Source of the DNA: a virus | DNA length: 40,338 nucleotides | Direction: 5' to 3' (one strand) | Virus record (IMG/VR): IMGVR_UViG_3300031957_002537 | Coordinates: 1 to 40,338 of that record | Shown here: piece by piece, positions 806 to 39,215 of the stretch | Position numbering within the stretch: position 1 is the first letter of the stretch | How the letters are laid out: every line of letters starts with the position of its first letter | Notes under the pieces: model-generated | What the model was told of the DNA's origin: nothing | Databases searched by the model: none | Seen by the model: the letters and a program-made list of their open reading frames with translations, nothing else | Translations under genes and position numbers: made by a program

Positions 806-852
806 CATTTAAACGGCGACCGTCTCGGCCGTTCAAATGGCATTTAAACAGC
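806..852. repeat. TTTAAACGGC-type motif cluster, left end
   Basis: CATTTAAACGGC (806-817, +), the complement of CATTTGAACGGC (828-839, -) and CATTTAAACAGC (841-852, +). The first two form a near-perfect inverted pair. The same motif recurs in non-coding DNA at the centre (20337-20656) and right end (39172-39215) of the prophage. The role is unknown. Confidence 0.7.
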
Positions 853-910
853 GGTTGTCTGCCATTCTCTGCGCGCCTGGCCGCCCCTGGAAGAGGATCA
901 GGGCCGGGCT

Positions 911-957
911 CATTCTGGGAAGAGCAAGGAAATAGTTGGGTTATTCTTCCCAGAATG
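911..957. promoter_or_regulatory. 13-bp inverted repeat, candidate operator or hairpin
   Basis: CATTCTGGGAAGA (911-923) and its exact complement (945-957) flank a 21-nt loop. CTGGGAAGAG occurs again at 1020-1029, giving three copies of one word within 120 bp upstream of the acetyltransferase gene. This looks more like a regulator binding array than a terminator, because no T-tract follows. Confidence 0.5.
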
Positions 958-1170
958 GCGAAACGCGGCGGGAGCCCGCCAGTTTCGCGAACGACAGCCG
1001 CTCATCGGTCCATGGCAAACTGGGAAGAGATTTTTGCCGAAGGAAGGTGATTCGCGGTCCGCGCGGGGACAGGTCGATCGCGGCACGGCAGCCGATCCAA
1101 AGCGTTACGCGGATTAAAACTTGGGGGAATACAGCGACAGTACACTTGGCGCCTAGCCATGGAGGCGCCA

Positions 1171-1923
1171 ATGCTGCCGGATCTGAAGCATCCCAAGTCC
1201 ATCGGCAAATCGCCGAGCGAGGCCGAGGGGATCCTGTCGACGTTCGAGTCTGCGATGCGCAGATTAGCTGCACGCCACAACTACCGGGTGGTTGTCTCAA
1301 CCGATATGGAGGCCTTCGTTGGCTTCCTGGCAGGAGCGCCAGGGAATGACGGTGTGTCGCCCGTGTTCAACCCCGCAAAGGTCAAGATCGACGACGCCTT
1401 CTGGATCGCCGTCATCCATCACGATCAGGTCATCGGCACAAACGCCCAGCGGTTCTTCAACTGCGCCAACGCGGGATACTACGACCAGATCCGCTCCGGT
1501 GTGGTGTTTGGTGCCGAGCCGCTGGCCCCGATCGAGCTGCTCCACAAGGAGCCAGGTACCCGCGGGAGCTGCTCGCATAGTGGAGGGATCTACGTCCATC
1601 CATCCTATCGAGGCACGGGGCTCAGCTGGTTCCTCCCCCACCTGGGGCGAGCGATCGCCATCAGGAAATGGCAGATCGATATGTGCTACGGCATGGTCTT
1701 CGACAGCCTGAGACGCACCAACATTGCGGAGAAGAACTACGGCGCTCAACGAGTTATCGAGATGTACTCAGGCCCGTTCCCGCACAAGTCCGGCAACATT
1801 CTGCTTTGGAGCGTCGAATCTGAGGCCGGCTTTCTTGTTGAGCGAATTAGGCAGTCTGTCTTCGAGATTGCGAACGGCCCCAACAAACAGATGAGTGACT
1901 TCGCCCCGGTGGTCAGACGTTAG
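1171..1923 (+). CDS. GNAT-like acetyltransferase (accessory gene)
   Basis: About 250 aa. The central segment GGIYVHPSYRGTGLSWFLPHL matches GNAT motif A, in which the R-G-x-G loop binds the acetyl-CoA pyrophosphate; it is followed by a helix and a downstream strand ending in an N-x-x-x-x-x-NYGAQ-like segment. I chose ATG 1171 because GGAGG lies five bases upstream; ATG 1159 is also in frame but covers that site. The substrate is unknown. The gene sits between attL and the repressor, outside the core modules, so it is probably lysogenic-conversion cargo. Its last 156 bp overlap the convergent PAS-like gene. Three CTGGGAAGAG words lie upstream and may regulate it. Confidence 0.65.
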   Translation: MLPDLKHPKSIGKSPSEAEGILSTFESAMRRLAARHNYRVVVSTDMEAFVGFLAGAPGNDGVSPVFNPAKVKIDDAFWIAVIHHDQVIGTNAQRFFNCANAGYYDQIRSGVVFGAEPLAPIELLHKEPGTRGSCSHSGGIYVHPSYRGTGLSWFLPHLGRAIAIRKWQIDMCYGMVFDSLRRTNIAEKNYGAQRVIEMYSGPFPHKSGNILLWSVESEAGFLVERIRQSVFEIANGPNKQMSDFAPVVRR

Positions 1924-2367
1924 GGGAATTATCAGCCTGCGATACACGGTCGACAAGCCCAACACGCCGTCCTCGATCTCTATTTGGGTCAATGAGGTCC
2001 GGCGATCTTCCTTCGCCTCCCTATAGTCCTTCAAGGAGTCCGAGCGAAGCGCGGACCAATCGATCGACGTCACAGGCTTGCGGGCCAGGGATTTCCCACC
2101 TTCCAGACGGCAGTGCTGATTGTACTGCTCGAAGAAGTACCCCTCCGGAGAGGAACTCGACACATCCACAAGATGCGCGGATCCGAGCATTCCGGATATG
2201 GCCAAGCGGTCAATTCGGATGTCGTCTACATCCACCAGCTGATTGGTCGGCTTCTCATTGAGCAGCTGCTGGAGCCGGATGAACGGGCTGTCGACACCAA
2301 CGATATAGCCGGATCGCGCTTTCCAGATGCGACCTCTCGAAGAATACAGCTTTGAATACTGCAACAT
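1768..2367 (-). CDS. PAS-like (PAS_5-type) domain protein
   Basis: 199 aa, with the pattern of short alphaproteobacterial PAS_5-type proteins: an N-terminal helix, an acidic DVDDIRIDRL stretch followed by AHLVDVSSSSPEGYFFEQYN, and a C-terminal strand YRRLIIPLTSDHRGEVTHLFVGAVR. Such proteins are mostly uncharacterised single sensory domains. No output domain is present. The start directly follows the stop of the upstream gene (2370-2780), so the two are probably co-transcribed, perhaps with the repressor. The 3' end runs convergently into the acetyltransferase gene by 156 bp; the last 30 or so residues lie outside the recognisable domain. The family assignment is by eye and moderate. Confidence 0.6.
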   Translation of the reverse strand: MLQYSKLYSSRGRIWKARSGYIVGVDSPFIRLQQLLNEKPTNQLVDVDDIRIDRLAISGMLGSAHLVDVSSSSPEGYFFEQYNQHCRLEGGKSLARKPVTSIDWSALRSDSLKDYREAKEDRRTSLTQIEIEDGVLGLSTVYRRLIIPLTSDHRGEVTHLFVGAVRNLEDRLPNSLNKKAGLRFDAPKQNVAGLVRERA

Positions 2368-2369
2368 AT

Positions 2370-3411: not shown

Positions 3412-3717
3412 ATGTCCGACGTTTCCGAGGGTTCCAACGCTGATCCGTTCTGGATCGAAGCCGAAGTTAAGCGCCGGGGGAGCCGGCTTGCTGAGCTGGC
3501 ATCCGCCGCTGGCGTGCACCACAGCACCGTCACCCGCGCAAGATTTCGAATCATCCCCAGGGGAAATCGCATTATTGCGAATTTTCTTGGCACTTCTGTC
3601 CATGACCTCTGGCCTGAGTGGTTCGACGCTGCGGGCAATCCAATTCGGTCGTCTTGCGAATCGGACGATGGCCGATCAGCTGATCACCGTCACCGGCAAA
3701 AGGGTGCCGCGGCGTGA
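3412..3717 (+). CDS. ner: Ner-like DNA-binding regulator
   Basis: 101 aa. Residues about 12-70 match the Ner/Nlp family: FWIEAEVKRRGSRLAELAS is the first helix pair, AAGVHHSTVTRARFR the recognition helix, and IPRGNRIIANFLGTSVHDLWPEWF the conserved C-terminal part (usual form PRGERIIADALG...IWPSRY). In Mu, Ner shuts down repressor and early transcription once lytic growth starts. First gene of the rightward operon; its stop overlaps the GTG start of the ParB-like gene. The residues after about 75 (His/Arg-rich) lie outside the family domain. Confidence 0.85.
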   Translation: MSDVSEGSNADPFWIEAEVKRRGSRLAELASAAGVHHSTVTRARFRIIPRGNRIIANFLGTSVHDLWPEWFDAAGNPIRSSCESDDGRSADHRHRQKGAAA

Positions 3718-4628
3718 CAAATCAGCCCGAAAACGTTGCCGTGCACGAGCACCTGCCGAGCGCCACTCACGTCGACCGACTGGCGCACCCGATCAGTGTG
3801 GAAGGCGTTGTCGTTCAAGATCGGTTGCGGGCAATCGACCCCGACCACGTATCGGGTATAGCCGTCAGCATGGCCGACATCGGCCAGCAGCAGCCCATCG
3901 TGGTCGCGGAACGCCCCTACGGTCTTCGGCTGGTGGCTGGGCTCCACCGACTCGCGGCCGCCAGACTGCTTGGATGGAAGACGATCTCCGCTGTGCTCGA
4001 AGTCGGCACTGACGAGGAGCTTAGGCTCGTCGAGATCGATGAAAACCTCGCCAGGCGCAACCTCTCCGAACTGGACCGGGCGATCGCACTCTTCGAGCGC
4101 AAGAGGATCTACGAAGAGCTGCACCCCGAAACAAAGAACGGCGGGGACCGCAGGAGCGCGGAAAAGCGGGGAAAAGATCAGAACGTCAACATGACGTTCT
4201 GGTCCCCGGAGGCCACCAGGGCCGCATCGTTCAATGACGAGATTGCGGGAAGGCTCGGTATCTCCACGAGCAAGGTTCAGCGGATCACGAAGATTGGCAA
4301 GGCCCTGACGCCTGAAATGCGTGAGGCGCTGTCCGGTCATGCTGTCGCCAATAACCAGGCCGAGCTTCTGAAGCTGGCCAAGCTGTCCGCGGACGAGCGC
4401 GGCCGCGCGATCGAGCTTCTCACCCGCACCGAAGCCCCGGCGCATAACGTCGGCGCGGCCGTCGAGATCATCCGCGGCCACCGGGCCACCGCCGAGCGCT
4501 CACCTGAAGACAAGGCGTTCGAGCGGCTGATCGATCTGTTTGGCCGGGCGCCGAAGAAGGTTCAGCGGCGTTTCATCGAGCACCTGCAGGCCAGCGGCAA
4601 GCTCGACGATCTGAAGGGGGGCGCATGA
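3714..4628 (+). CDS. ParB/Spo0J-like nuclease-domain protein
   Basis: 304 aa from a GTG start that overlaps the ner stop (GTGA). It contains the ParB N-terminal fold: ADIGQQQPIVVAERPYGLRLVAGLHRLAAARLLG, with the G-L-H-R box at residues 76-79, and IDENLARRNLSELDRA, the E-N-x-x-R-x-N-L box at about 110-117. A helical central region, IAGRLGISTSKVQRITKIGKAL, looks like the ParB helix-turn-helix. No ParA partner is encoded, so plasmid-style partition is unlikely. Related genes occur in early operons of alphaproteobacterial Mu-like phages, function untested. It could bind DNA specifically and regulate or organise the phage genome; the repeated motifs at ends and centre are possible targets, which is speculation. 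Confidence 0.8.
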   Translation: MTNQPENVAVHEHLPSATHVDRLAHPISVEGVVVQDRLRAIDPDHVSGIAVSMADIGQQQPIVVAERPYGLRLVAGLHRLAAARLLGWKTISAVLEVGTDEELRLVEIDENLARRNLSELDRAIALFERKRIYEELHPETKNGGDRRSAEKRGKDQNVNMTFWSPEATRAASFNDEIAGRLGISTSKVQRITKIGKALTPEMREALSGHAVANNQAELLKLAKLSADERGRAIELLTRTEAPAHNVGAAVEIIRGHRATAERSPEDKAFERLIDLFGRAPKKVQRRFIEHLQASGKLDDLKGGA

Positions 4629-5278: not shown

Positions 5279-5751
5279 TGGCGAAGGCTCGCAACGACAG
5301 CCTGACGATGGACCTGCTCGACCTGCTGAAGAAACAGCCGGTCCCAGAGCCCGCCATCAGCTACGAGAAGGGCGAGGTCAAGGGCGCGACCCTGGACGTC
5401 CGCATTGCGGCCGCCGTCTCGAAGTCCATGAAGGACAGCGAGATCAAGCGCGACGAGATCGCCCGCCTGATGAGCGAGCACCTCGGTGAGACGGTCACCG
5501 AAACCCACCTCAACAACTACGCATCGCCTGCAAAGAAGGACCACCGAATTCCGGCGGTCCGCCTGATCGCGCTCGCGAAGGTCCTGCAGGATCCGCGGCT
5601 GCTGTCGATCGGCGCCGAGGACATCGACTGCATCGTCGTGCCGATACAGCACGGCAAGCTGATCAAGCTCAGCCTGCTCAACGAGCAGATCCGCACCTTG
5701 AGCGAGCAGCTGGAGAAGCAACGCGGCGAGCTTGGGGAGCTGCTGTCTTGA
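5275..5751 (+). CDS. hypothetical early protein, HTH-like
   Basis: 158 aa, ATGA overlap with the methyltransferase gene. The central part IKRDEIARLMSEHLGETVTETHLNNYASPAKKDHRIPAVRLIALAKVL resembles a degenerate Cro/XRE helix-turn-helix, followed by DPRLLSIGAEDIDC. The C-terminus LSLLNEQIRTLSEQLEKQRGELGELL is a short coiled coil. Similar proteins sit directly before the transposase in Mu-like phages of Alphaproteobacteria, with no tested function. It may be a DNA-binding accessory factor for transposition or early regulation. Confidence 0.75.
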   Translation: MMAKARNDSLTMDLLDLLKKQPVPEPAISYEKGEVKGATLDVRIAAAVSKSMKDSEIKRDEIARLMSEHLGETVTETHLNNYASPAKKDHRIPAVRLIALAKVLQDPRLLSIGAEDIDCIVVPIQHGKLIKLSLLNEQIRTLSEQLEKQRGELGELLS

Positions 5752-7718
5752 TCGGCTCCTGGTTCACCGCTGATCAGCTCGCGGGTCTGTCCCTTCCCGG
5801 CATTCCGAAGACGAAGCGCGGCGTCAACCAGGTGGCATCCGAGCAGGCCTGGTCGGACGCCAAGACGATGGACGGCCGCCCGCTTGCCCGGCGCAAAGCC
5901 GGCCGCGGCCGAGGCTACGAGTATCACGTCGACGTGCTGCCGGCGCCGGCCCGCGCCGCCCTGCTGGCCCGCGCCGCCCGGCCGCGAAAGATCCAGAGCG
6001 AAGAGCTGGACAACGACAACCGGGACAGCGGCGCGCGCTGGCAGGCCTTCGAGAAGCTCAGCGACAAGGCAAAGGGCCACGCCCGCAGCCGTCTGGCGGC
6101 CCTGCACGCCGTCGAGCTGCTCGAGGCCGGCGGGTCGAGCCGGACAGCCGCGATCTCCGTGGTGGCCGCTCAACACCAATGCAGCACGTCATCGCTCTGG
6201 AATTGGTTCGACCTGGTGGCCGGGTGCGACCGCCGAGATTGGCTGGCCTACCTGGCGCCCGCCTACAAGGGTGGCGGCCATGCGAAGGCCGAGATCGACG
6301 ACGAGGCCTGGCAGTATTTCCTGGCCGACTACCTGCGCGGCTCAAAGCCGTCGCCGGCCGAATGCTGGCAACGCCTGCAGGACGCCGCCCGCGACCATGG
6401 CTGGACGCTGCCGAAGAGCCTGAAGACGCTCACACGCAAGCTGCAGCGCGAGGTCGATCCGGCCGTCATCACACTGAAGCGAGACGGCGCGGACGCCCTG
6501 GCGAGCCGGATCCCGGCCCAACGCCGGCGGCGCGACAATCTGCGGGCGCTGGAGGCGGTCAACTACGACGGCCACAAGCTCGACCTCTTCGTGCGCTGGC
6601 CGGACGGTACGAAAGACCGTGCGATCCTGCTCACCTTCCAGGATCTGGCCAGCAACAAGATCCTGGCCTGGCGCCTCGACACCAGCGAGAGCGCCGAAGG
6701 GTTCCGGCTGGCATTCGGCGACCTGGTCGAACGCTGGGGCATCCCGGACATGGTGTTCTCCGACAACACCATGGCAGCAGCGGCCAAGTCGAACACCGGC
6801 GGGTCGCGCTTCCGGAACCGCTACAAGATCAAGGACGACGACTTCGTCGGCCTCTTCCCGGCTCTCGGCATCGACCTGCGCTTCACCAAGCCCGCGCATG
6901 GCCAGTCCAAGCCGATCGAGCGGGCCTTCGGCGACCTGTCCCGATACATCTCCAAGGCCCCGGAATGCGAGGGCGCCTATACCGGCAACGCCCCTCAGAA
7001 CAAGCCCTGGAACTATGGCGCGCGGGCGATCGATCTTGCCGACCTGCTGCCGGTCTGTGAGCGAGAGATCAACCGCTTCAACAGCCGGACGGACCGCAAC
7101 TCGTCCGTCGCGAAGGACCGGTCTTGCGATGACGTCTTCGCCGAGAGCTATGCCCGCGATCTGATCCGTAAGCCCGTACCCGGCGATGAAACCCTGCGGC
7201 GCCTGTGGCTGCTGTCGGTCGAGGGTCTGACCTGCCGCGCTCCGTCCGGCGAGATACACCTTCACGGCAACCGGTATTGGACTGAGGCGCTGGGCCGGAT
7301 CGTCGGCCAGAAGGTCGCGGTCCGCTTCGATCCCGATCGCCTGCACCAGCCGATCCACGTCTACGACCTGGATGGCCGATATCTCTGCGCGGCCGAGTGC
7401 ATCGAGGACAGCGGCTTCGTGGACCGCGATGCCGCAAAGCGTCACGCCAAAGCGCTTGCAGACCATCGCCGGGCAACCCGCGAACTGGCGGAGGCCGAGC
7501 TGCGGCTGTCGGCGTCCGACGTCGCCCGCCTCACGCCGGCCGTCATCGATCAGCCTGCCCCCGATGCGCGGGTCGTCCGTGCACACCGCTTCCGGGGCAA
7601 CGCCGCCGTGAAGGCCGCGCCCGACCTCCTGGAAGACCAGGATCGCGGCGCCTTCTCGGACCAATTCGTCGCCAACGTCCTGCAGTGGAAGGCGGAGAAG
7701 GATCGTCACGGGCTCTGA
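5748..7718 (+). CDS. MuA-type DDE transposase
   Basis: 656 aa, close to Mu MuA (663 aa). It starts at TTG, overlapping the previous stop (TTGA). The N-terminal winged-helix domain (about 4-75, SWFTADQLAGLSLPGIPKTKRGV ... GRGYEYHVDVLP) corresponds to the Mu enhancer-binding domain. Helix-turn-helix domains that bind the end sites follow (about 95-245). The RNase H-fold core carries the DDE triad at D274 (NYDGHK), D339 (VFSDNT) and E391 (KPIERAF), nearly the positions of D269, D336 and E392 in MuA. A C-terminal beta-barrel and a basic tail (KRHAKALADHRR) follow. It pairs and cuts the prophage ends for replicative transposition and integration. Confidence 0.95.
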   Translation: MIGSWFTADQLAGLSLPGIPKTKRGVNQVASEQAWSDAKTMDGRPLARRKAGRGRGYEYHVDVLPAPARAALLARAARPRKIQSEELDNDNRDSGARWQAFEKLSDKAKGHARSRLAALHAVELLEAGGSSRTAAISVVAAQHQCSTSSLWNWFDLVAGCDRRDWLAYLAPAYKGGGHAKAEIDDEAWQYFLADYLRGSKPSPAECWQRLQDAARDHGWTLPKSLKTLTRKLQREVDPAVITLKRDGADALASRIPAQRRRRDNLRALEAVNYDGHKLDLFVRWPDGTKDRAILLTFQDLASNKILAWRLDTSESAEGFRLAFGDLVERWGIPDMVFSDNTMAAAAKSNTGGSRFRNRYKIKDDDFVGLFPALGIDLRFTKPAHGQSKPIERAFGDLSRYISKAPECEGAYTGNAPQNKPWNYGARAIDLADLLPVCEREINRFNSRTDRNSSVAKDRSCDDVFAESYARDLIRKPVPGDETLRRLWLLSVEGLTCRAPSGEIHLHGNRYWTEALGRIVGQKVAVRFDPDRLHQPIHVYDLDGRYLCAAECIEDSGFVDRDAAKRHAKALADHRRATRELAEAELRLSASDVARLTPAVIDQPAPDARVVRAHRFRGNAAVKAAPDLLEDQDRGAFSDQFVANVLQWKAEKDRHGL

Positions 7719-9374: not shown

Positions 9375-10193
9375 ATGAGCGAGTCAAACTCACCCCGAAA
9401 TCTAGGCCCCAAGCCGCGCCTGGAGTTCCATTCGCCCAGCGTTCTGACGATAGACGATCGGTACCAGCGCAACACCGACAGCGCGGCCAGCAAGGCCGTC
9501 ATTCGGCGGATCGCCGAGAACTTCTACTGGCCGCTCTTCGGCGTCGTCATGGCGACGGACAATGGCGACGGCACCTACAGCGTGATCGACGGTCAGCACC
9601 GCGTTGAAGCGGCGAAACAGATCCCCGAGGTCCGCGCGGTGCCGGTCCTGGTGGTCGAAGAGATGACGCTGGCCGAGCAGGCGCAGGCCTTCATCGCCGT
9701 CAACCAAACCCGCGTGCGACTTAATGCGCTGCAGATCCATCGTGCAGCCGTTCGGGCGGGCGATGAGCACAGCGTCGAGCTTGACCGTGTCGCCAAGGAG
9801 TGCGGCCTCACGATCCCCGGTAACGTCCGGACCCCGAGCGAAGACCGCCCAGGCGAGGCTCTCTGCATCAAGGCGCTCGCCTCCATCTTGCGGGCACACG
9901 GCCCTGACCACCTGGCACTGGTGATCAGCACCACGCTGGACGCCTTCGAGCGCAACTCGGCCGACCTCCGATCCCAGGTATTCAAGGCCGTCTCTGCCGC
10001 AATCATGGGCGGGACGAACGCCAGGGACGTCAAGGCGGTGCTTCGCAACAACGATGCCGCCAGCTGGATCCTGCGGGCTCAAACCAGGGCCAAACAGACC
10101 GGCATGGACACCGTCTCGGCCTTCGCCGGGATGCTGTCGAGCCCGCGCGCCAAGGGCGACGCCAATCGATCCACCGCTATCACTGCAGCATAG
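9375..10193 (+). CDS. second ParB-like (DUF6551-like) protein
   Basis: 272 aa, ATG with GAGGAG nine bases upstream. The N-terminal third is a ParB-like fold: VLTIDDRYQRN, YWPLFGVVMATDNGDGTYSVIDGQHRVEAAKQI with the G-Q-H-R box, then VNQTRVRLNALQIHRAAV. The C-terminal part is helical and lacks a clear helix-turn-helix. Unlike the first ParB-like protein it lacks the ENLxRxNL box. Such proteins are frequent in phage early regions with unknown function. It may bind nucleotide or act on DNA; no partition partner is present. Confidence 0.7.
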   Translation: MSESNSPRNLGPKPRLEFHSPSVLTIDDRYQRNTDSAASKAVIRRIAENFYWPLFGVVMATDNGDGTYSVIDGQHRVEAAKQIPEVRAVPVLVVEEMTLAEQAQAFIAVNQTRVRLNALQIHRAAVRAGDEHSVELDRVAKECGLTIPGNVRTPSEDRPGEALCIKALASILRAHGPDHLALVISTTLDAFERNSADLRSQVFKAVSAAIMGGTNARDVKAVLRNNDAASWILRAQTRAKQTGMDTVSAFAGMLSSPRAKGDANRSTAITAA

Positions 10194-20484: not shown

Positions 20485-20658
20485 GCTTCCGGCCGACAGG
20501 GAGCCTATTCGGGTGGGTGTCGCAGCCAGCCTCTTGCCCGTCACCCCCGAAAACACCATGCTGGGGCCGTCCAGGTGCCGGGCTGGCGCCGGCGATGCAC
20601 CGCCAGGAAGGCGCACTTCGCTCGCTTCGGACACCAACGCTCCCCATTTAAACGTCCC

Positions 20659-20708
20659 ACATGGTGACAGGTGTCACCATGTTTTGGCGCCTGCGCGTCG
20701 GTCACGCT
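20659..20708 (+). promoter_or_regulatory. late promoter 2 (palindrome plus downstream box)
   Basis: ACATGGTGACA-GG-TGTCACCATGT is a perfect 11-bp-arm palindrome (20659-20682). TCGGTCACGCT follows at 20698-20708. The distance from palindrome to box equals that of late promoter 1. It should drive the capsid-tail operon that starts at 20740. Confidence 0.78.
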
Positions 20709-20739: not shown

Positions 20740-21138
20740 ATGGCCAGACGATCGAAGAATACCCAGCGCGGCGACCAGAGCCCGGCCGGCAATTCGGCCA
20801 GCCAGGCATCCGCCGCCGAAGATGCTCCCGAGGCGGTAGCCGTCGACACGATTGTCGCGGCGACGGCGTCGGACACCATCGCCCCGGTCTCCGGTGCTGA
20901 CACCGTAGCGGGTGGCACGGGCGCCGACACCGTCACCGAGGGCCAGGCTGCCTCCACCATCGCGCCCGACCAGGACGACGATGACGATCCGGAGCCCGAG
21001 CGCCTCGATCAGCCGACCACCAGCCAGGCCGCCGCCGCCGTCGGGATCGACGAGGAAGAGGTCTTCGCCTTCAACTGGGATGGCGAGCAGCTGACCGTGG
21101 TCACCGTCGACGGCCAGAAGCTTCGGTGGAAGCCGTGA
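20740..21138 (+). CDS. hypothetical late protein, acidic and Thr/Ala-rich
   Basis: 132 aa, first gene after late promoter 2, with GAGGG eight bases before the ATG. The N-terminal two thirds are low-complexity and acidic (DTIVAATASDTIAPVSGADTV ... DQDDDDDPEPE), likely disordered. The C-terminus VFAFNWDGEQLTVVTVDGQKLRWKP is a compact beta segment. Its stop overlaps the start of the capsid fusion gene (TGATG). It may be a capsid accessory or assembly factor; not recognised. Confidence 0.65.
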   Translation: MARRSKNTQRGDQSPAGNSASQASAAEDAPEAVAVDTIVAATASDTIAPVSGADTVAGGTGADTVTEGQAASTIAPDQDDDDDPEPERLDQPTTSQAAAAVGIDEEEVFAFNWDGEQLTVVTVDGQKLRWKP

Positions 21139-23504
21139 TGCGGCCGGTGAACCGCGGCAAGGCCGCCTTCGTCGCCCAGGCGCTCGCCGCCTCGACGATA
21201 ACCATGCTGCGCGAGGCGCAGGCTGATCGCGCCTGGCCGCCTCTGCCGCCGCTGGGCCTGATCGGTGAGGCCGCACTCCGTGAGGCGTTCGAGGGCGACT
21301 TCCAACAGCTCGAGGAGCTGCTCCGCGGCGAGCTGCGCAAGCTCTTCAAGATGCAGGGCGACGACGATCCGTGGCCCTGGGTCCGCGCGGTGTTCGAGGA
21401 CGCCGTGGTGGTGGAGCGCGACGGCAAGTTCTGGCGCTACGCATACACCGCCGACGGCACCAACGTGACGCTGGCAACGCCGACTGAGGTGGTCCAGCGC
21501 TACCTGCCGGCGGACGGCAGTGCGGTGCGCGAGGCGGTCGGCGTGTTCCTGGAGGCCGAGGCCACTGCCGGCGGCCGATATCTGGTGCGCGTGATTCGAG
21601 CCGGTCTGTCCGGCAACGGAAACTTCTACCCCGACGCCGCGCTGCGTGAGGCCGTGGGCCTGTTCAACGGCACCCGTGTCTTCGTGAAATCCGACGAGGA
21701 ACACCTCAAGGGCAAGGGCAAGGACGTCCGGAACCTGGTGGGCCGCCTGACCGAAGCGAAGTTCGTGGCCGGGCCGCAGGTCGACAAGGGGGAGATCCAG
21801 GCAACCCTGGAGCTGATCGAGCCCGAGGGCGACGTGGGCGCCAAGCTGCGCGAGGCGCTGACCCGCGGCATGGGCAGCCTGTTCGGGCTGTCGATCGACG
21901 CCATCGGCCCGACGCACACCAAGAAGCTGCACGGCCGCAACGTCCGGATGGTCGAAGCCATCCAGAAGGTCGCGTCCGTCGACCTGATCGTCGAGCCGGG
22001 AGCCGGCGGCGAAATCATCAACCTGATCGAGGCGCAAGGAGACGACGCCATGTGGCGCAAACGTTTGATCGAGGCCATCCGCAAGTCCAAGCCGAGCCTG
22101 CTGTCCGGCAAACAGGTCGATGAGCTGACCGATGAAGACCTGGAGGGACTGCTGCGCGAGGCGCTCGGCACCGGCCCGGAGCCCGACGGCGGCGAGAACA
22201 GCGACGCCGGCGCGGATCTGCGCGAGGCGATGGCCGAACTGAGTCGCATGAACGACGTGCGGGAACACCTCCGCGAGGCGCTCGCCGAAAGCAAGCTGCC
22301 GCAACCGGCCCGCGATCGGATCAAGGCCCGGTTCAAGAGCCTGCAGCGCTTCACCGAGGCCGATGTCGACAGCGCGATCGCCGAGGAGCGCACCTACCTG
22401 GCGCAGTTCACTGAGTCCGGCACGGTGCTGGATCTCGGCGAGGGTCGTATCGAGCCCGGCGAAGGCCGCGACGTGAAGGTCCGCCAGATGCTGGACGCCT
22501 TCTTCGACCCGGCCAACCGCGAGGTCCGGTCCATCCGCGAGTGCTACATCGAGATCACCGGCGACCGTCGGGTCACCGGCATTCTGCGCGAGTGCGACCA
22601 GTCCGCCCTCCGTGAGGCGCTGGGCTCCGACAGCTGGGCCGACGTGCTCGGCGACAGTATCCGCCGCCGGGTGATCGCCGACTACAACGTGCAGAACCAG
22701 TACGACATCTGGCGCCGGATCTGCTCGGTGGTGCCCGTCAACGATTTCCGGACCAACGAGCGCACCCGCTGGGGCGGCTACGGGGATCTGCCGACGGTGG
22801 CCGAGCGTGATCCCTACCCGGCGCTGGACAGCCCGACCGACGAGAAGGCTTCCTACGCGGCGACCAAGCGCGGCGGCACGGAGACCGTCACGCTGGAGAT
22901 GATCAAGAACGATGACGTCGGCGCGGTGCAGCGGGTCCCGACCAAGATGTCCCGTGCGGCGAAGCGGACGCTGGCCAAGTTCGTGCTCGATTTCATCCGC
23001 ACGAACCCGGTGATCTACGACACCAAGGCCCTCTTCCACGCCGATCACGGCAACCTCGGCTCGACCGCGCTCGGTACGGCCGGTGCGCTGGCCGCCGCCC
23101 GCCTGCTGATGTCGAAGCAGACAGAGAAGGACAGCGGCGACCGGCTCGGTATCGCGCCGAAGTCGCTGCTCTGCCCGGCGGACCTGGAGGAGACCGCCGT
23201 GAACCTCTTCAGCCGGTCCACCAACAACGACAAGACGTTCATCCAGTCGCTGGTGCTCGACATCCTGCCGGTCTGGTACTGGACCGATACCACCGACTGG
23301 GCGCTTGTCGCCGACCCGATGGAGTGCCCGACGATCGAGATCGGCTTCCTGGATGGTGCGGAAGAGCCGGACATCTTCGTCCAGGACTCGCCGACTTCCG
23401 GGTCGCTCTTCAGCCACGATCAGATCACCTACAAGATCCGCCACATCTACGGCGGCGGTGTCCTGGACTACCGCGGCATGTTCAAGGCGGTGGTCGCGGG
23501 CTGA
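21138..23504 (+). CDS. prohead protease-scaffold-major capsid fusion protein
   Basis: 788 aa from ATG 21138 (TGATG overlap); GTG 21126 would add four residues. Three parts can be seen. Residues about 146-260 are protease-like: GRYLVRVIRAGLSGNGNFYPDAAL, H189 in DEEHLKGKGKDVRNLVGRL and S252 in FGLSIDAIG suit a His/Ser prohead protease. Residues about 300-480 are charged and helical, like a scaffold. Residues about 490-788 form a major capsid domain related to Mu gpT: NVQNQYDIWRRICSVVPVNDFRTNERTRWGGYGDLP, IRTNPVIYDTKALFHADHGNLG, MSKQTEKDSGDRLGIAPKSLLCP. In Mu these are separate genes. Cleavage between scaffold and capsid parts is expected during maturation. Confidence 0.88.
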   Translation: MRPVNRGKAAFVAQALAASTITMLREAQADRAWPPLPPLGLIGEAALREAFEGDFQQLEELLRGELRKLFKMQGDDDPWPWVRAVFEDAVVVERDGKFWRYAYTADGTNVTLATPTEVVQRYLPADGSAVREAVGVFLEAEATAGGRYLVRVIRAGLSGNGNFYPDAALREAVGLFNGTRVFVKSDEEHLKGKGKDVRNLVGRLTEAKFVAGPQVDKGEIQATLELIEPEGDVGAKLREALTRGMGSLFGLSIDAIGPTHTKKLHGRNVRMVEAIQKVASVDLIVEPGAGGEIINLIEAQGDDAMWRKRLIEAIRKSKPSLLSGKQVDELTDEDLEGLLREALGTGPEPDGGENSDAGADLREAMAELSRMNDVREHLREALAESKLPQPARDRIKARFKSLQRFTEADVDSAIAEERTYLAQFTESGTVLDLGEGRIEPGEGRDVKVRQMLDAFFDPANREVRSIRECYIEITGDRRVTGILRECDQSALREALGSDSWADVLGDSIRRRVIADYNVQNQYDIWRRICSVVPVNDFRTNERTRWGGYGDLPTVAERDPYPALDSPTDEKASYAATKRGGTETVTLEMIKNDDVGAVQRVPTKMSRAAKRTLAKFVLDFIRTNPVIYDTKALFHADHGNLGSTALGTAGALAAARLLMSKQTEKDSGDRLGIAPKSLLCPADLEETAVNLFSRSTNNDKTFIQSLVLDILPVWYWTDTTDWALVADPMECPTIEIGFLDGAEEPDIFVQDSPTSGSLFSHDQITYKIRHIYGGGVLDYRGMFKAVVAG

Positions 23505-31200: not shown

Positions 31201-34163
31201 CCGCGCAGAACCAGGCGGCAGATGCCGTGGTCCGCTCAGCCGAGGACCTGGAGTTCCAGAACGAGATCCGACGCCTGGAGCTGGAGAACACCGACGAGGC
31301 CCGCCGGCGGATCGTCGCGCTGACTACGGCGCGGAGGCTGGAGCAGCTGGAGTTGGAGCGGTCGCGCGCCCTGCTCGAGGCCCTGCCAGAGCAGATCGAT
31401 GCAGTGAACGCGGCCTACGATCGGATGCGCAAGGCGATCATGGACGAAGGCCAGGTGCGTGAGCTGGAGCGCATCAAGGATCAGGCCAACCCGCTGGCTG
31501 AGGCCTTCAAGACGGCGGCCGAGGGGATCCAGCGCGGCTTCAGCGATGCGATCACCAACGTCGTGCGCAACGGAAAGCTGCAGTTCAAGGATCTGGCGGG
31601 CAGTGCGAAGGACATCTTCGCGCGCATGTTCGGTGAGATCGCCACTCTGGCGATCGCCAAGCCGATCATCGTCCCGATCGTCGGCGCTCTCGGACAGGCC
31701 GTCGGTCTGTCTCCGTCGGCGATCGCCAGCATCACCGGGCAGTTCGGAGGCGGAACCGGCGGACTGACCGGCGCCCTGCCGGCCTTCTCAGGTGGCGGTG
31801 GCGGGCTGATCGGCGGTATCGGCGCTGGCATGGGCCTAATCAACTTGCTGCGCGGGGGCTCGCTGACCACCGGCTCGGCGTCGATCGGCAATCTCTTCGC
31901 GTCGCTGGGTTCGAGGCTGGGCGGTGCCGAACTGGGCGCGAGCTTCGGTAACGCCGGTCTTGCATTTGGGTCTCCTCTCGGCTCGATTGGATCCTTCGCT
32001 ACCAACCTGCTGCTGGATCAGCTCCTTGGCGACCGAGGCATTGGCTCGACGATCGGCTCGACAATCGGGGCGGTTGCCGGGTCCTTCTTCGGTCCCTTCG
32101 GCACCATCGCCGGCTCGGCGCTAGGAAATGTCGTCGGCGGCCTGTTTGGTGGCGGAGGCACTCCCTCGGTTGGTCCGACCGGTGTGGCGCGCATCCCGAA
32201 CGTGATCGGCAACAGCGAGATCCAGCTCTCGGCCGACAACGGTGGCGACCCGACGGCGGCAGGCGAGGTCGCCCGGCGGATCCGGGAGATCGCCACCGAA
32301 GCAAGCGAGCGCTACGGTGCGACTGGTTCCCGCGCCTACGGCCTCGATGTTGGCGCTTTCTCCAATCCGGAAGGTGGGTCCGGACAGCCGGCCGGCTTCA
32401 ACCTGAAGGAAATCTTCAACGGACAGGCAGCCGCGCAGGATCTGTTCAGAGGACTGTCGGCCGACGAGGCGGTCACCGAAGGCGTGCGTCTCACGCTCCA
32501 GAAGGCCTTCGAGGGCTTCGACACCGACCGCGTCGCGACCGCCCTGGAGAAGTCGTCGGCCAAGACGATCGAGGAGCTGCTCTCCGACCTGGATTTCGCC
32601 GCCGGCCTCGACGAGCTGTTCGTGCCGGACCTCGATATAGCCGGCCCGCTGAAGACGCAGCTGGACGCGCTGAAGGACGCCTTCGACGAGGCCAAGGAGC
32701 GGGCCAAGGAACTCGGCCTGGCGACGGAGAACCTGGCCGACAACTACGCGACCGCCGTCAGCCAGGTGCAGCAGGGCTTCCGCATCAGCCTCGAGGCGGA
32801 GGCTGCCGGTGTTGGCGGGCAGTACAACCAGCTCCTTACCCTTGCCGGCCAGCTCGACCAGCTCTCGACCGATGCCGCATTGGCCGGCGTGAGCGCCGAT
32901 ACGCTGGCGCAGGTGATCGACGGTCGCTTCCGTCCGGTGATCGAGGGTCTCGGCGCCAACGAGCTGCAAGCCCTGATCGATGCATTCAGCGGCGTGGCCG
33001 ACCAGGTGCAAGGTGCGGACGTCATCCTGCGAGAGCTGACCGAGAGCATGAACTCTCAGGTGATCGATGCGCTCACCGAGATGGCCGAGAGCACGGTCGA
33101 GGTGGCCGACGCCGCCGAGCGGCAGGAGGACGCCCGCAACACCCTGATCGAGGCCTACAGGCGCGAGAGCGCCGAGCTGGAGAACGTCCGCGACCGGATG
33201 AACGGCTTTGCCCGCTCGATCCGAGAGACCCGGCTCGGGCTGGAAGCCAGCGACCTGGCCAAGGGCGGCCCGACCGACCGGCTGGCCGCAGCGAAGGGCA
33301 TCTTCGACGACGTGTTCGCCCGCGCCCAGGCGGGTAACGAGGACGCGATCGCCGGCATCGAGCAGGCGGCGCAGAACTATCTGCAGATCGCCCGCGAAGT
33401 CCTGGTGGGCGCTGACTACAACGCCGCCTTCGACATGACGGCCGATCGACTTTCGCGGGTGGAGTCCGTCGCCAAGCAACAGGCTCAGATCGCCGACCAG
33501 CAGCTGGCCCAGATGCAGATGCAGGTCAGCCAACTGGTGTCGATCAACGACAACGTCATCTCGGTCGCCGATGCGATCCGGGACCTGGAAGCCGTGCTCG
33601 CCGAGAGTGCCGCCAACGGGACGGCGACCGGCGGCACGTCGGGCAGTGGCACGTCCGGCGGCGTCACCGACCAGTTCACCCGCGAAGAGCGGTATCTGGC
33701 CCGCTATCCGGACGTGCTGGCATGGGCGCAGGCGACGGCCGCGGCGGAGGGTGTGACGGATCCCGACCAGTTGCGCGTGCGCCTCAACCAGCTCGCCTAT
33801 CAGCATTACCACGGCGCCGGCGTGCAGGAGCGCCGAGAGTATGAGAAGGGCGGCTGGCATCCAGGCGGTCCGGCGATCGTGCACCCCGGCGAGCTGCTCT
33901 ACACCGGCGGGCCGATGCACGTCTTCAACGCCCAGCAGTCGCTGGCGCTGATGTCCCGCCCGGCGAACACCAACACGATGGACATGACGCCGCTGGTCGG
34001 CGCGATCGGCCGGACCACCTCGGCGATCTACTCGGCCGGCGATCGCCAGGCCATGGCCACGGCAGATCTGGCCGGCCAGGTGGAGCGCATGGGGATGACC
34101 ATCGCCGACCAGGGGCGCCAGATCCGCGATCTCACCATGCAGCTGTCGAAGAGGTCATCATGA
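28275..34163 (+). CDS. tape measure protein
   Basis: 1962 aa, the longest gene here, ATGA overlap with the chaperone fusion. Residues about 60-370 match the TP901-type tape measure core: FAAYERGLVGVAKTADLTEDQIREMGAAVTEMARRMPFARTELLGIAQAGGQLGV. Long helical, Ala- and Gln-rich regions follow (about 450-610, 780-1100). Three hydrophobic stretches lie at about 614-640, 1138-1200 and 1250-1297 (Gly-rich, GSTIGAVAGSFFGPFGTIAGSALG), able to enter the inner membrane during DNA injection. The C-terminus has REERYLARYPDVLAWAQ and GGWHPGGPAIVHPGELLYTGG, common in tape measures. Its length predicts a tail of roughly 290 nm at 0.15 nm per residue. No lytic catalytic motif was found. Confidence 0.92.
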   Translation: MNDIVVGITLRADGRGFVGEVRQARAELVGLRDNSSGAARGMEDLRLRSSSALASLRSLQTVIAGLGLAVGVREAVQEFAAYERGLVGVAKTADLTEDQIREMGAAVTEMARRMPFARTELLGIAQAGGQLGVKGVKDLTLFTETIAKLGTASDLAGDEAATSLTRILNVTGEAVDSIDVLASVIVALGNNAAASESEITRVATQVAQATAIFGVSAGEAAGFGAALRSVGVQAELGGSAVGRTFRAIEESIRGGGQRFRELSEITGLTGDQLRQTFEQDATSVFVSFVEGVGAAVESGESAAEVLERFGLKGEELLKVLPTLAVNSDQLSRFLGIVADETRDTTALNEEYLRSSKTLSSQLAITGNALDEIAAALGSAVAPAIVEATEDLRSFVQEAVDSGDVAATFDAVAYAVGALSSNLDILAVAGGAAVFARMRPAIAGVLQSINALVPAIASSTTAWVARNAAVARGAAVDIESARATELKSAAQSQSAAQALAAARAAEVSAAAELSNVRALQASIAAERDREVQRLQAQINERGRQQSIARLVALRADEAAAARLVASAEAELAAAKSATAAASANAARAEAVHTRAMAASTVGARTATLAMRGLSGAMNLIGGPAGAALLAAGGLYFLATRQSEASQAADLHARAIEGVNRQLGLGAGLSQDAAQRAREEAEASLALTEALIAETQVRATRGGQMRRAAREDLAALQQQAKELREGLKLLDVQGDLRALFDGNEGLFGGGGLSAILPTSGGGGGDFSGIATDVQSLVDQLDPLAKVMREASDAEEQLRASHEKLTAAGYDVEALIESLKHGTDAYAFGLGAAARAAREQAQDTTLALQVRKLEADGTEEARQEIVRLTAARELDRLESRRQQAVMAAAPGQIGEINAAYAELRAAVLASRDAELEWSSGQDQALKALRARLDPIAEKYRDVDQQAQLLMRGFEAGKLTYEQYLDLIGRLGNQVEAWAAAQNQAADAVVRSAEDLEFQNEIRRLELENTDEARRRIVALTTARRLEQLELERSRALLEALPEQIDAVNAAYDRMRKAIMDEGQVRELERIKDQANPLAEAFKTAAEGIQRGFSDAITNVVRNGKLQFKDLAGSAKDIFARMFGEIATLAIAKPIIVPIVGALGQAVGLSPSAIASITGQFGGGTGGLTGALPAFSGGGGGLIGGIGAGMGLINLLRGGSLTTGSASIGNLFASLGSRLGGAELGASFGNAGLAFGSPLGSIGSFATNLLLDQLLGDRGIGSTIGSTIGAVAGSFFGPFGTIAGSALGNVVGGLFGGGGTPSVGPTGVARIPNVIGNSEIQLSADNGGDPTAAGEVARRIREIATEASERYGATGSRAYGLDVGAFSNPEGGSGQPAGFNLKEIFNGQAAAQDLFRGLSADEAVTEGVRLTLQKAFEGFDTDRVATALEKSSAKTIEELLSDLDFAAGLDELFVPDLDIAGPLKTQLDALKDAFDEAKERAKELGLATENLADNYATAVSQVQQGFRISLEAEAAGVGGQYNQLLTLAGQLDQLSTDAALAGVSADTLAQVIDGRFRPVIEGLGANELQALIDAFSGVADQVQGADVILRELTESMNSQVIDALTEMAESTVEVADAAERQEDARNTLIEAYRRESAELENVRDRMNGFARSIRETRLGLEASDLAKGGPTDRLAAAKGIFDDVFARAQAGNEDAIAGIEQAAQNYLQIAREVLVGADYNAAFDMTADRLSRVESVAKQQAQIADQQLAQMQMQVSQLVSINDNVISVADAIRDLEAVLAESAANGTATGGTSGSGTSGGVTDQFTREERYLARYPDVLAWAQATAAAEGVTDPDQLRVRLNQLAYQHYHGAGVQERREYEKGGWHPGGPAIVHPGELLYTGGPMHVFNAQQSLALMSRPANTNTMDMTPLVGAIGRTTSAIYSAGDRQAMATADLAGQVERMGMTIADQGRQIRDLTMQLSKRSS

Positions 34164-35785
34164 GCCGCGGGCGCATCATGGCCTACCTTGCCGAGGTTGA
34201 TCTGACCGCGGCCGACGGCACGTCGCCGACGACACTCTATCTGAGCGACCTCCCGATGCGCCCGTGGCCGTCCACGGACGCCGACCGGCCAAACCAGTCC
34301 TACGACAGCCGGATCCTGGAGGCGCCCTCGATCGGGTTGGAGGTCTTCGCCGACGCCTCCCGGCTTACCGGGGCGCTCGGCACGGGGGCTCTGGTGCTCT
34401 CCAATGCCGATGGCGCCCTCAACCAGTACCGCGGCTCCATCTTCACGGCCGTGCGCGTCTGGTGGGGCGAGATCAAGCCGGACAGCGACGACGAGGAGGA
34501 TGAACGCTCCTTTGCGGCTGACTTCCGCAAGATCGTCGACGCCCGACCGGAGGCGCCAGCCTGGGACGTCACCGGCAGGCGGCCGAGCCGACTGGAAATC
34601 CCGATCTACGATCGCCGGGCGGACCTGGAGAACGACATCCAGGAAGAGACCTTCGACGGATCCAACAGCGGAGCGACCGGCTACGAGGGCACCGCCGACG
34701 ATCTGAAGGACAGCGTGAAGCCGCTGGCACTCGGCGACCTGGTTACCGCCAACATCCCGCTGATATGGGTCAACGCGACCGCCCAGGTCGCACAGGCCCA
34801 CGCCGGCGAGATGGAGGAGTATTCGGCGATCTACGATCGGGGCGCCGCCACCGGACTGACCGACGACGGGGACGTGTCCGGATCGTCCTTCGACAGCGCT
34901 ACTCCGTCCGCCGGCCATCGGGTCACCGACCTCGGCCGAGGGCTGCTGAAGGTCAATCAGTCCTTCGGCGGGGTGGTCACCGCCGGCGTGAAGGGTGCGG
35001 TCGACCTGGTGGCCGGCGCGGGCTACCTCGACACCGCTCCGGAGCTGATCGCCGCGCTGATCGAGAGACAGGACCCGGCGGCCACGATCGGCCCCACCTT
35101 CGCGGCGATCTCCGAGACGGCGAAGGTCGGGCTCTACATCGCCGAGCGAACGTCGACCGCGCGCGTCATCGAGGCCCTGGCCCGGTCGATCGCCTGCTGG
35201 GTCCTGCCGGATCCGCTGGGCGTTTGGCAGATCGGCAAGCTGCACCTAGCGACGGGCTCTCCGGACCGCACGATCGACGACGTCGACATCATCTCCATTC
35301 GGCCGGGCGATCCGGAGGTCAGCCGGCCGGTGTGGTCCGTGACGGTGCGCGGCGGTCGGCTGTACCAGACCCATTCGCGCAGCAACCTGGCCGGCGGCCT
35401 TTGGAAGACCGACGACGAGGAGCGCCTTCGCCGCGAGTGGCGGACCGGCATCAAGAAGGACACCGCGCTGCGCGACCTCTGGTGGCCCAATGTCCGATCG
35501 ATCGACCTGGAGACCGCGCTGCGCGATCCGGCCGACCTCACGGCCGTCGCAGAGCTGCTGTTCGACTGCATGTCGGTGCGCGAGGACGGCACGCCGTTCG
35601 CGGAGTGGGTGGTCACCGTGGAGCAGGATGAAGAGTGGCTCGACCTGCTGGCCGATCCTGGCATCGGCAAGGCGGAGGTCCGGCTCCGGTACAGCGCCGA
35701 CGATATCGACCGGGTGATGATCGTCATGGGCGCCCAGCCCGGCCGGCCGACCGGCGGTCAGCTCACCTTGAGGCTGTGGGGCTGA
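34160..35785 (+). CDS. tail tip / hub minor tail protein
   Basis: 541 aa, ATGA overlap with the tape measure and GAAGAGG upstream. It starts with a beta domain (AYLAEVDLTAADGTSPTTLYLSDLPM). A central ETFDGSNSGATGYEGTADDLKDSVKPLALGDLVTANIPL segment suits tail tip proteins of B3-like phages. The C-terminal half LIERQDPAATIGPTFAAISETAKVGLYIAERTSTARVIEALARSIACWVL ... VWQIGKL resembles a baseplate hub. It is likely to form part of the tail tip after the tape measure. The exact family is not named. Confidence 0.75.
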   Translation: MSRGRIMAYLAEVDLTAADGTSPTTLYLSDLPMRPWPSTDADRPNQSYDSRILEAPSIGLEVFADASRLTGALGTGALVLSNADGALNQYRGSIFTAVRVWWGEIKPDSDDEEDERSFAADFRKIVDARPEAPAWDVTGRRPSRLEIPIYDRRADLENDIQEETFDGSNSGATGYEGTADDLKDSVKPLALGDLVTANIPLIWVNATAQVAQAHAGEMEEYSAIYDRGAATGLTDDGDVSGSSFDSATPSAGHRVTDLGRGLLKVNQSFGGVVTAGVKGAVDLVAGAGYLDTAPELIAALIERQDPAATIGPTFAAISETAKVGLYIAERTSTARVIEALARSIACWVLPDPLGVWQIGKLHLATGSPDRTIDDVDIISIRPGDPEVSRPVWSVTVRGGRLYQTHSRSNLAGGLWKTDDEERLRREWRTGIKKDTALRDLWWPNVRSIDLETALRDPADLTAVAELLFDCMSVREDGTPFAEWVVTVEQDEEWLDLLADPGIGKAEVRLRYSADDIDRVMIVMGAQPGRPTGGQLTLRLWG

Positions 35786-35786
35786 G

Positions 35787-37653: not shown

Positions 37654-38504
37654 TGGCTCACCCGATGCAGCCGGTAGGGGGCATGCCTTCCGGGACGCCG
37701 CCGGGGTATAACCGACAGGCCGTTGGCGGGTCGACCACAGCGACCATCGCAGCGCTGCTGGTAGTCGGCGGCGGCGGCGGCGGATGCGGCGACTACAACG
37801 GCACGCTGGCCCCATGTGGTGGCGGCGCCGGCGAGCACTACTACTCGGACACCCCGTTCAACATCCTCATGGGCTTTACCTACCCGATCACGGTGGGCGA
37901 CGGCGGTCTTGGGGGCGGTCTTGTCGGCCACACTAACGTTGCATTCGGCGGCCAAAACGGCGAGGCGAGCGCAGCGTTTCACATCACCGCAAATGGCGGT
38001 GGCGGCTCCGGTGATCTCGGCGGAACCAGCATTGAAGTCCGCGGCAAAGATGGTGGCTCCGGTGGTGGGGGGACGCAGGACGGGGGCGGATCCTCCGTCA
38101 AATTCAATAGCTCATCCGGCGGCACAAGTGGCTCGCAAAGCTCAAGCGGCGGCGCTGGTGGAGGCGCCACGAACTCGGGCTCCGGGAACAATGGCGGGAA
38201 CGGGACATCAACAAGCATCACCGGGTCGCCCGTCACGAGGGCCGGCGGCGGCGCTGGTGAAGGCGGAACCGGCGGGGCCGGCGGCGGCGGCAACGGAAAC
38301 GGTTCTGATGGAACAGCAAACACCGGCTCAGGCGGCGGCGCGGGCAGTGGCACGGCGGGCGGGGACGGAGGGTCCGGCGTTGTAATCATTCGCTATCTGA
38401 CCAGCCAGGGGACACTGGTCGCGACCGGGACTTATTCAACCGCGACCGATGGCGCCTATACGGTCGTCACCTTCACCGGAAGTGGAACCTTCAAACTGAT
38501 CTGA
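37653..38504 (+). CDS. glycine-rich tail tip adhesin-like protein
   Basis: 283 aa, TGATG overlap. From about residue 38 to 250 it consists of glycine-rich motifs (LVVGGGGGGCGDY, ITVGDGGLGGGLVG, TRAGGGAGEGGTGGAGGGGNGNG, GGAGSGTAGGDGGSGVVIIRYL). This pattern is that of phage adhesins built from polyglycine type II helices, as in phage S16 gp38-type receptor-binding tips, and of other Gly-rich fibre ends. The end has a beta domain (TYSTATDGAYTVVTFTGSGTFKLI). The variable loops between the glycine runs would set receptor specificity. A receptor-binding role is inferred. Confidence 0.75.
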   Translation: MAHPMQPVGGMPSGTPPGYNRQAVGGSTTATIAALLVVGGGGGGCGDYNGTLAPCGGGAGEHYYSDTPFNILMGFTYPITVGDGGLGGGLVGHTNVAFGGQNGEASAAFHITANGGGGSGDLGGTSIEVRGKDGGSGGGGTQDGGGSSVKFNSSSGGTSGSQSSSGGAGGGATNSGSGNNGGNGTSTSITGSPVTRAGGGAGEGGTGGAGGGGNGNGSDGTANTGSGGGAGSGTAGGDGGSGVVIIRYLTSQGTLVATGTYSTATDGAYTVVTFTGSGTFKLI

Positions 38505-38511
38505 GGCTGAC

Positions 38512-39159
38512 ATGACCGATTGGCAAAGAGTGGAGCTATCCGGGCCTACAAGCGTTGGGGAAGTTGGCGCATTGCCCGATTTCCTTGTCGGTTTAACCCT
38601 CGACACGTTGACCGACCTTAGCTTATTCGCGAGTGCCTATCCGGACCTAGACGGCGTCGGTTACTGGCCAGTGGTAGATCTTCCGCTACCAACACCGGGC
38701 CTTGGCCAAACCATCGGACAGACGCCGGGAATGTCGATCGACGCTGAGCTGAAGCATATCGGCCGTTCCTATGAGGTAGAGTTTCTGCCGTTGGCCGAGC
38801 GGAAGGCAGTGCTGAAAGAGGCGATCACCGAGGAGTTCCGCCGTCGGCGCAATGGCGGCACGACCGCCTCGATCGGCGGATTCGACGTCGAAGTCTCAAC
38901 GACGCACGAGGCAGCAGTCGAACTTGATCGGGCGATCGCCAAGATCACCCGCACCAATCCGGCTGGCACCATCCCCGTCGTCACCCGCGGCAAGGCTCGG
39001 GTGACCCTCACGGCGGCGATCGCAACAGACATGCTGCGGGCGATCGAGGACCACGTCGCCGCCTGCCAAGAGAATGAGAACAGTCTCTATGGAGAGGTGG
39101 ACGACGCCGAAACCCAGGCTGCGCTGACCGCCATCGACATTATGGCAGGCTGGCCGTAA
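38512..39159 (+). CDS. DUF4376-like tail fibre-region protein
   Basis: 215 aa. The C-terminal 120 residues follow the DUF4376 pattern: ERKAVLKEAITEEFRRRRNGGTTASIGGFDVEVSTTHEAAVELDRAIAKI, then ARVTLTAAIATDMLRAIEDHVAACQENENSLYGEVDDAETQAALTAIDI. DUF4376 domains occur in phage tail proteins and fibre assembly proteins. The N-terminal half (DWQRVELSGPTSVGEVGALPDFLVGL) is unassigned. It is the last gene of the tail operon. Confidence 0.8.
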   Translation: MTDWQRVELSGPTSVGEVGALPDFLVGLTLDTLTDLSLFASAYPDLDGVGYWPVVDLPLPTPGLGQTIGQTPGMSIDAELKHIGRSYEVEFLPLAERKAVLKEAITEEFRRRRNGGTTASIGGFDVEVSTTHEAAVELDRAIAKITRTNPAGTIPVVTRGKARVTLTAAIATDMLRAIEDHVAACQENENSLYGEVDDAETQAALTAIDIMAGWP

Positions 39160-39171
39160 CGGCCGCCGGAA

Positions 39172-39215
39172 GGCGTTTAAACGGTCCCTCGACTGCATTT
39201 GAACGCCGTTTAAAG
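39172..39215. repeat. TTTAAACGGC-type motif cluster, right end
   Basis: GGCGTTTAAACGG (39172-39184, palindromic core), CATTTGAACGCC (39196-39207, +) and the complement of CTTTAAACGGC (39205-39215, -). The cluster lies in the gap between the tail genes and the methyltransferase gene. It matches the words at the left end and centre. Confidence 0.7.

Follow-up and report, generated by a model that had tools for sequence, protein, structure and literature searches.

A candidate SGS-type gyrase site at the centre of a Mu-type prophage and related TTTAA arrays near its two ends

Introduction

In phage Mu, DNA gyrase is known to act at the strong gyrase site (SGS; PMC10052514), and a cryo-electron microscopy model of the right arm of this site has its AT repeats facing gyrase and its GC repeats facing outward (PMC11626157). 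The gyrase motif of E. coli shows a 10.75-bp GC periodicity in its flanks at -63 to -17 and 20 to 66 (PMC6379681), and the candidate SGS of Pseudomonas phage Ab30 is intergenic and lies near the genome centre (PMC5977238). Here we compare with these systems the 40,338 nucleotides of IMG/VR virus record IMGVR_UViG_3300031957_002537 (positions 1 to 40,338; the window), which by its transposase and head genes holds a Mu-type prophage of 39,631 bases (39.6 kb) with 66% GC. The original prediction, made from the letters alone, had placed eleven copies or near-copies of a motif at both ends and the exact centre of this prophage, and had suggested a bridging protein or gyrase as the binder. We propose that the central cluster (20338-20484) is probably an SGS-type DNA gyrase site like that of Mu, and we describe related arrays near both ends.

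Results and discussion

The central site resembles the SGS of Mu

In the Mu record the annotated gyrase cut lies at 17879/17880 and is followed to its right by ATTTTTAAACCGGTATTTAACGG; a TTTAA pair with the unit TTTAACGG adjoins this cut, and TA steps lie 15, 36, 48 and 70 bp from the assumed dyad. By the annotation of that record, the slot between the F/G and protease genes holds both the SGS and the late promoter PI. The central site of the window likewise sits between a gpF-like gene and a protease/capsid gene:

19389-20330, plus strand: Mu gpF-like head gene (Phage_Mu_F), left neighbour of the central site
20338-20356, plus strand: left arm, a TTTAA pair of period 10 at distances of 57 and 67 bp from the proposed dyad; in five lineages, 13 of 17 aligned columns are invariant
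20400-20430, plus strand: core with CTAGGAGCCTCCAGGACGGCC (TAG at 20407-20409), the proposed gyrase cleavage region; 19 of 31 columns invariant in five lineages
20463-20484, plus strand: right arm, tandem CTTAAACGGC at distances of 58 and 68 bp from the proposed dyad; 11 of 19 columns (20463-20481) invariant
20534-20562, plus strand: putative promoter-like TTGCCC-N17-CATGCT, placed as the Mu late promoter PI is; 25 of 33 columns (20532-20564) invariant in five lineages
20646-20681, plus strand: TTTAAACG, then the palindrome CATGGTGACAGGTGTCACCATG; 29 of 42 columns (20643-20684) invariant in five lineages
21126-23504, plus strand: capsid/protease gene, second gene to the right of the central site (Phage_capsid_4, Mu-like_gpT; head maturation protease in PHROGs)

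The site shares with the SGS of Mu and D108 its position near the genome centre, its slot between the F/G and protease genes directly upstream of a late promoter or late-promoter-like sequence, and a TTTAA pair with the unit TTTAACGG to one side of the cleavage core, a likeness to the right arm of the Mu SGS. D108, near-identical to Mu at the centre, is the only one of nine other named phages sampled that has the pair in its central stretch. Unlike Mu, in which the right arm is the important one, the window has two symmetric arms and a TAG core, and its unit also forms arrays near both ends; the exact pair of Mu closest to an end (35224) lies inside gin, 1.5 kb from the right end. The Ab30 candidate has the same kind of intergenic location near the genome centre, but its 17.5-20 kb stretch holds an inverted repeat, GGCACATTGTGCC, instead of a TTTAA pair. 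The inverted repeat GGCACATTGTGCC...GGCACAATGTGCC occupies the candidate SGS place in both L119 and L121 (Ab30 and D3112).

Five lineages were aligned at the centre: the window, L021, G022 (read in the near-identical G055), G023 and G435, a 5.6-Mb genome whose two prophages, G435a and G435b, are 97-100% identical over aligned stretches and were counted as one lineage. All five have a conserved TAG core flanked by patches at -67/-57 and +58/+68, give or take 2 bp for each patch. Of these 20 patches, 17 read TTTAA, CTTAA or TTAAA, and the other three read TTCAA, TTTCA and TGAAA. Invariant columns make up 43 of the 67 in arms and core, compared with 28 of the 186 outside all five conserved blocks, which were picked after the alignment had been seen. 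Helically phased AT patches in GC-rich arms are thus found beside a core, as in an SGS, with the core as the predicted cleavage site. The centre of symmetry lies 40 bp from the midpoint of the 39,631 bases in the window, 68 bp in G435a and 378 bp in G435b, so that the "exact centre" of the original prediction is a position near the middle.

Clustering of the motif at three places was borne out. All six occurrences of TTTAAA in the element fall inside the left, central or right cluster (shuffle mean 0.18), as do 10 of 11 occurrences of TTAAAC/GTTTAA (mean 0.39), the remaining one being at 38591. Seven TTNAA pairs 9-12 bp apart were seen in non-coding DNA, compared with a mean of 0.04 in shuffles, and none of 1000 dinucleotide-preserving shuffles of the non-coding segments (3731 of 39,631 bases) reached any of the three observed counts. 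The non-coding set rests on a partly hand-adjusted gene list, by which all three clusters are, as had been claimed, non-coding. The number of eleven copies is reached only if near-copies are allowed: as strict motifs, C[AT]TTTRAACGGC matches twice in the window (806 on the plus strand and 828 on the minus strand) and CTTAAACGGC twice (20465 and 20475), four places in all, the latter two being the perfect tandem pair already reported. Exact TTTAA pairs (10-12 bp apart) occur across the whole window at the centre only, at 20340 and 20466, and the units at the left, central and right clusters are alike beyond AT-richness (TTAAACGGC).

The pair recurs among relatives of the capsid gene

The sample of capsid-gene relatives came from the best 80 of 109 viral matches; 69 of 79 viral loci, 26 of 32 genome loci and the window gave 96 loci, which formed 62 clusters at 85% identity. 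In most of the 16 omitted loci the sequence was cut short near the capsid gene or inside it, and one of the 16, L117, holds no pair. In 25 of the 62 clusters, exact pairs (TTTAA 10-12 bp apart) stand in the 3.2 kb that precede the capsid match; this count includes the window and some pairs outside the gap that are probably coding (e.g. L038, L040), and 1.66 were expected from the remainder of the same loci. Among loci with a GC fraction of at least 0.55 the count was 20 of 48 clusters (0.80 expected). Within automatically found intergenic gaps, after six clusters with no detected gap and three cut too near had been left out, the pair was present in 16 of 53 clusters compared with 0.32 by shuffling; this figure is low because the gap finder chose other gaps in some pair-carrying loci (L022, L044, L039, L076). 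The signature, TTTAA patches one helical turn apart before the protease/capsid gene, thereby provides a list of candidate sites.

Six of 20 other loci, which belong to the five clusters L022/L072, L076, L026, L056 and L066, have a TAG at a distance of exactly 36 bp from the pair; the same-slot sequence in L022 is GTTTAACCGGCGTTTAACGG. Acidovorax/Comamonas-type loci are less regular, with CTA at 35, 41-42 or 70-71 bp and none in L100. A strict pair lies at a fraction of 0.48-0.56 of the length in 10 of the 24 viral records of at least 33 kb; centrality was counted on all 24, nine scanned records having been chosen for holding a pair. A matrix was built from the relatives' centres; its training set overlapped the central matches of most records, only G022 and G023 being independent. 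Eight genomes have a relative of the transposase, and a central pair was found in G435 and perhaps in G107, the ends of which were not located. Across G435, the two prophages account for 4 of the 6 TTTAAACGGC matches, with 4 in the reversed control, and for 4 of the 9 strict pair matches, with 17 in that control.

Two further patterns in the named phages were noticed after the fact. GTTAG pairs 11 bp apart stand in the G-I gap of RcapMu (L202, 8250-8275) and RR1-B (L207, 4860-4890) and are perhaps a variant of the same phased site. KS10 has a single TTTAAA beside CTAGG in the slot.

Related arrays lie near the two ends

The clusters near the ends, and the transposase-type sites outside the left one, are as follows:

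648-660, plus strand: left-end transposase-type site 1 (AGGTTCTAGAGTG), role putative; conserved in L083 at 352 and at the left ends of G435a and G435b
756-768, plus strand: left-end transposase-type site 2 (AGGTTTTAGAGTC), role putative; conserved in L083 at 458
806-852, plus strand: left-end array, TTTAAA - 24 bp - TTCAAA - 11 bp - TTTAAA; same geometry in L083 (23, 11) and in G435a and G435b
39172-39215, plus strand: right-end array, TTTAAA - 22 bp - TTTGAA - 11 bp - TTTAAA; same units in G435a and G435b, degenerate in G023

Both arrays repeat the central unit with one spacing (22-24, then 11 bp) and have no TAG-type core. They lie about 0.17 kb (left) and 1.05 kb (right) inside the respective ends, so "at both ends" holds only loosely. 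The left array is kept in three lineages (the window, L083 and G435), with TTCAAG as the middle patch in L083, where transposase-type sites stand just outside it as in the window; its excess of conservation is modest, with 28 of 46 columns invariant compared with 58 of 160 elsewhere in the left-end alignment. One related lineage, that of the two near-identical G435 prophages, shows the three-place pattern as well: each prophage has five of its six TTTAAA words in the same three places and the sixth elsewhere (3977544 and 369277, respectively). The right-array match in G435 is weak evidence, because the whole stretch is 92% identical to the window throughout. In the diverged G023 the right array has decayed to TTGAA/TTCAA-type words.

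A strict scan for end arrays (each patch matching TTTAAA at 5 of 6 positions; loci with a GC fraction of at least 0.58) returned only the two arrays of the window and the cluster L050/L102, at 435, about 9.5 kb upstream of the capsid gene; it missed L083, with its TTCAAG middle patch. End matches in G006 (1213) and G010 (33058) were dropped as they looked coding on inspection, those in G015 (39237) and G016 (1168) look non-coding and lack the end-array geometry, and a left-end pattern match in L157 looks unrelated. By reading, the G006 record begins inside the transposase gene. The arrays were also considered as MuA transposase end sites and rejected: the end sites read like AGGTTYTRGAGTS, unlike the array unit.

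Different inverted repeats stand at the same left-end place in four phages (905-960 in the window, 600-660 in L083, and the left ends of G435a and G435b) and are probably different immunity operators. The left array itself appears not to be the immunity operator, because G435a and G435b carry different repeats beside nearly the same array; that these neighbours are operators is our reading of their sequences. The Mu transpositional enhancer/operator is left-end regulatory DNA that must meet both ends. The left array resembles it in being DNA of the left-end regulatory region, and differs in lying outside the immunity-type inverted repeats and in having a unit that recurs near the right end and at the centre. 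At the other end, the non-coding leader 39216-39368 is strongly conserved between the window and G023; it precedes a Com-family gene (PF10122) in G023 but a D12 methyltransferase gene in the window. With the right array upstream of this leader, the region resembles the com/mom leader of Mu-like phages as judged from G023, and departs from it in the window, where the methyltransferase comes after the leader.

Proposed mechanism and alternative explanations

Gyrase is the best explanation for the centre, since Mu has a similar unit at a site of known gyrase action; the central pattern also fits the enzyme, in that AT repeats face gyrase in the Mu arm and the flanks of the gyrase motif are periodic at 10.75 bp. 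We infer that cleavage by host gyrase would fall close to the TAG core, at about 20408, with the flanking DNA wrapped so that the helically phased TTTAA patches face the enzyme. From this position the bound enzyme would introduce supercoils into the two halves of the prophage, and the ends would thereby meet for replicative transposition, in the way proposed for Mu. The end arrays would most likely be phased, bendable DNA that helps to hold the ends at the base of the loop via gyrase, a nucleoid protein or the transposase, three binders to which we give comparable chances; the ends may thus also carry topological elements in this lineage. The earlier suggestion of gyrase-related sites is well supported for the centre (gene slot of the Mu SGS, TTTAA pair at the Mu cut, recurrence in capsid relatives); for the ends it has the three-place pattern of one related lineage (G435) behind it, and gyrase or a bridging protein would be no more than a candidate binder there. 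A broader version, which we hold only tentatively and with the chances against it, is that a gyrase-wrapping unit has spread to the centre and both ends, that gyrase or a shared DNA-bending protein holds a closed loop with the ends already paired, and that a central SGS is common in transposable phages; if true, the Mu domain would have a three-point version here.

Several observations weigh against a gyrase site at the centre. Exact pairs occur at five places in Mu, so the pair alone does not mark the SGS there, and gyrase sites placed into Mu failed with one exception (PMC10052514), so likeness to the SGS need not mean function. A generic periodicity filter ranked the Mu SGS below 232-390 positions, depending on the period, and put 15-172 positions above the central site of the window; as even the Mu SGS is not ranked first, the filter cannot separate true sites from background. 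At 66-69 bp, the outer patches are on the border of the published gyrase motif or outside it. Among the larger viral records, 10 of 24 lack any strict pair and 4 (G005, G007, G008, G018) hold strict pairs only elsewhere; of the genomes with a transposase relative, G231, G084 and G312 have no central pair, none was seen mid-way along the examined parts of G099 and G262, and G130 fell outside the comparison. No exact pair was found in the slot in 37 of the 62 clusters, nor any pair in the central stretches of Ab30, D3112, B3, KS10, RcapMu, RR1-B, Psul1 and Mae-JY22. Within the sample, the signature is therefore a feature of Mu/D108 and of some members of this capsid family rather than of transposable phages in general.

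The TTTAA units might instead be bound by one sequence-specific phage protein, which would link the ends to the centre without gyrase; candidates are the transposase N-terminal domain, the first ParB-like protein and the CII-like regulator. The shared unit likeness described above speaks for this, as do the distance of the left array from transposase-type site 2 (52 bp in the window, 53 bp in L083) and the homologues of the transposase, MuB, the first ParB-like protein and the CII-like regulator in G435a, G435b, G022, G023 and L083. We nevertheless consider it unlikely, given the like unit in the gyrase-bound arm of Mu and in D108 and in the same slot of Paracidovorax, Paenacidovorax and Comamonas relatives (L096, L097, L116). 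Bridging by ParB-like proteins had been raised in the original prediction. The second of them (9375-10193) was not found by tblastn in seven related records of four lineages (G435a, G435b, G022, G055, G023, G027 and L083, some of them fragments) and is a poor candidate; the first (3714-4628) was found in five of the seven, at 37-38% identity, and is neither supported nor excluded. The gene 9375-10193 looks like a lineage-specific insertion.

Less likely again is ordinary transcription control, with the clusters belonging to a left early region, a PI-like central late promoter and a right mom-type operon leader. It would account for the conserved promoter-like sequence after the central site, as PI follows the SGS in Mu, for TTTAAACG at 20646 adjoining a perfect palindrome, for promoter-like and palindrome blocks as well conserved as the arms, and for the leader beside the right array that precedes the Com-family gene in G023. 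However, the promoter-like site comes 55-200 bp after the central arms, which have their own core as centre of symmetry, and G435a and G435b, which by their inverted repeats probably differ in immunity, nearly share the left array. CtrA-type motifs have the form TTAA-N7-TTAA, and exact matches to it occur in many relatives; sites of this kind from an alphaproteobacterial host are nonetheless a very improbable explanation, as the central spacing in the window is N6, N7 pairs also occur in Acidovorax/Comamonas-type relatives and a like pair stands in Mu. The hosts of these relatives and of Mu are not known to have CtrA.

Neither the TTTAA-pair signature nor the end arrays are described in the accessible sections of the literature on the Mu SGS and transposable phages (PMC10052514, PMC5977238, PMC3820752, PMC8705779, PMC2628397, PMC11626157, PMC12393610, PMC6379681), a comparison made without Oram and Pato 2004 and Oram 2006.

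Element ends and gene setting

Further features of the prophage are:

5748-7718, plus strand: MuA-type transposase gene (DDE_2, E 9e-47; HTH_Tnp_Mu_1, HTH_Tnp_Mu_2, Mu-transpos_C)
39369-40184, plus strand: D12-class adenine methyltransferase gene, 3' of the right-end array
40218-40257, minus strand: two right-end transposase-type sites, 22 bp apart, role putative

The predicted limits of the element, 634-40264, were upheld. A 5.46-Mb contig of G435 holds the unoccupied host locus, 90% identical over the 633-bp left flank of the window, and since the host-like sequence ends at base 633, base 634 is the first of the element; the right end at 40264 (GGTCCGGCTACA) is identical to the ends of the two G435 prophages. 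These prophages sit between 5-bp target duplications, CTGTG and GAGGT. In the window the flanks read CTGGC and CTCCC and form no matching target duplication; the right flank (40265-40338) is not a continuation of the host locus found on the left and has no match in G435. The contig may therefore join two insertions, or be chimeric or a rearrangement made by transposition.

No Rfam family was found in the window at gathering thresholds, and the tail protein 34160-35785 used as query found no relative. The transposases of the G435 prophages and of L083 are 61% and 60% identical to that of the window, respectively. Just 3' of TTTAAACG, CATGGTGACAGGTGTCACCATG is a perfect 22-bp palindrome (20660-20681), largely conserved in the five lineages; together the two are probably a regulator site of the downstream gene.

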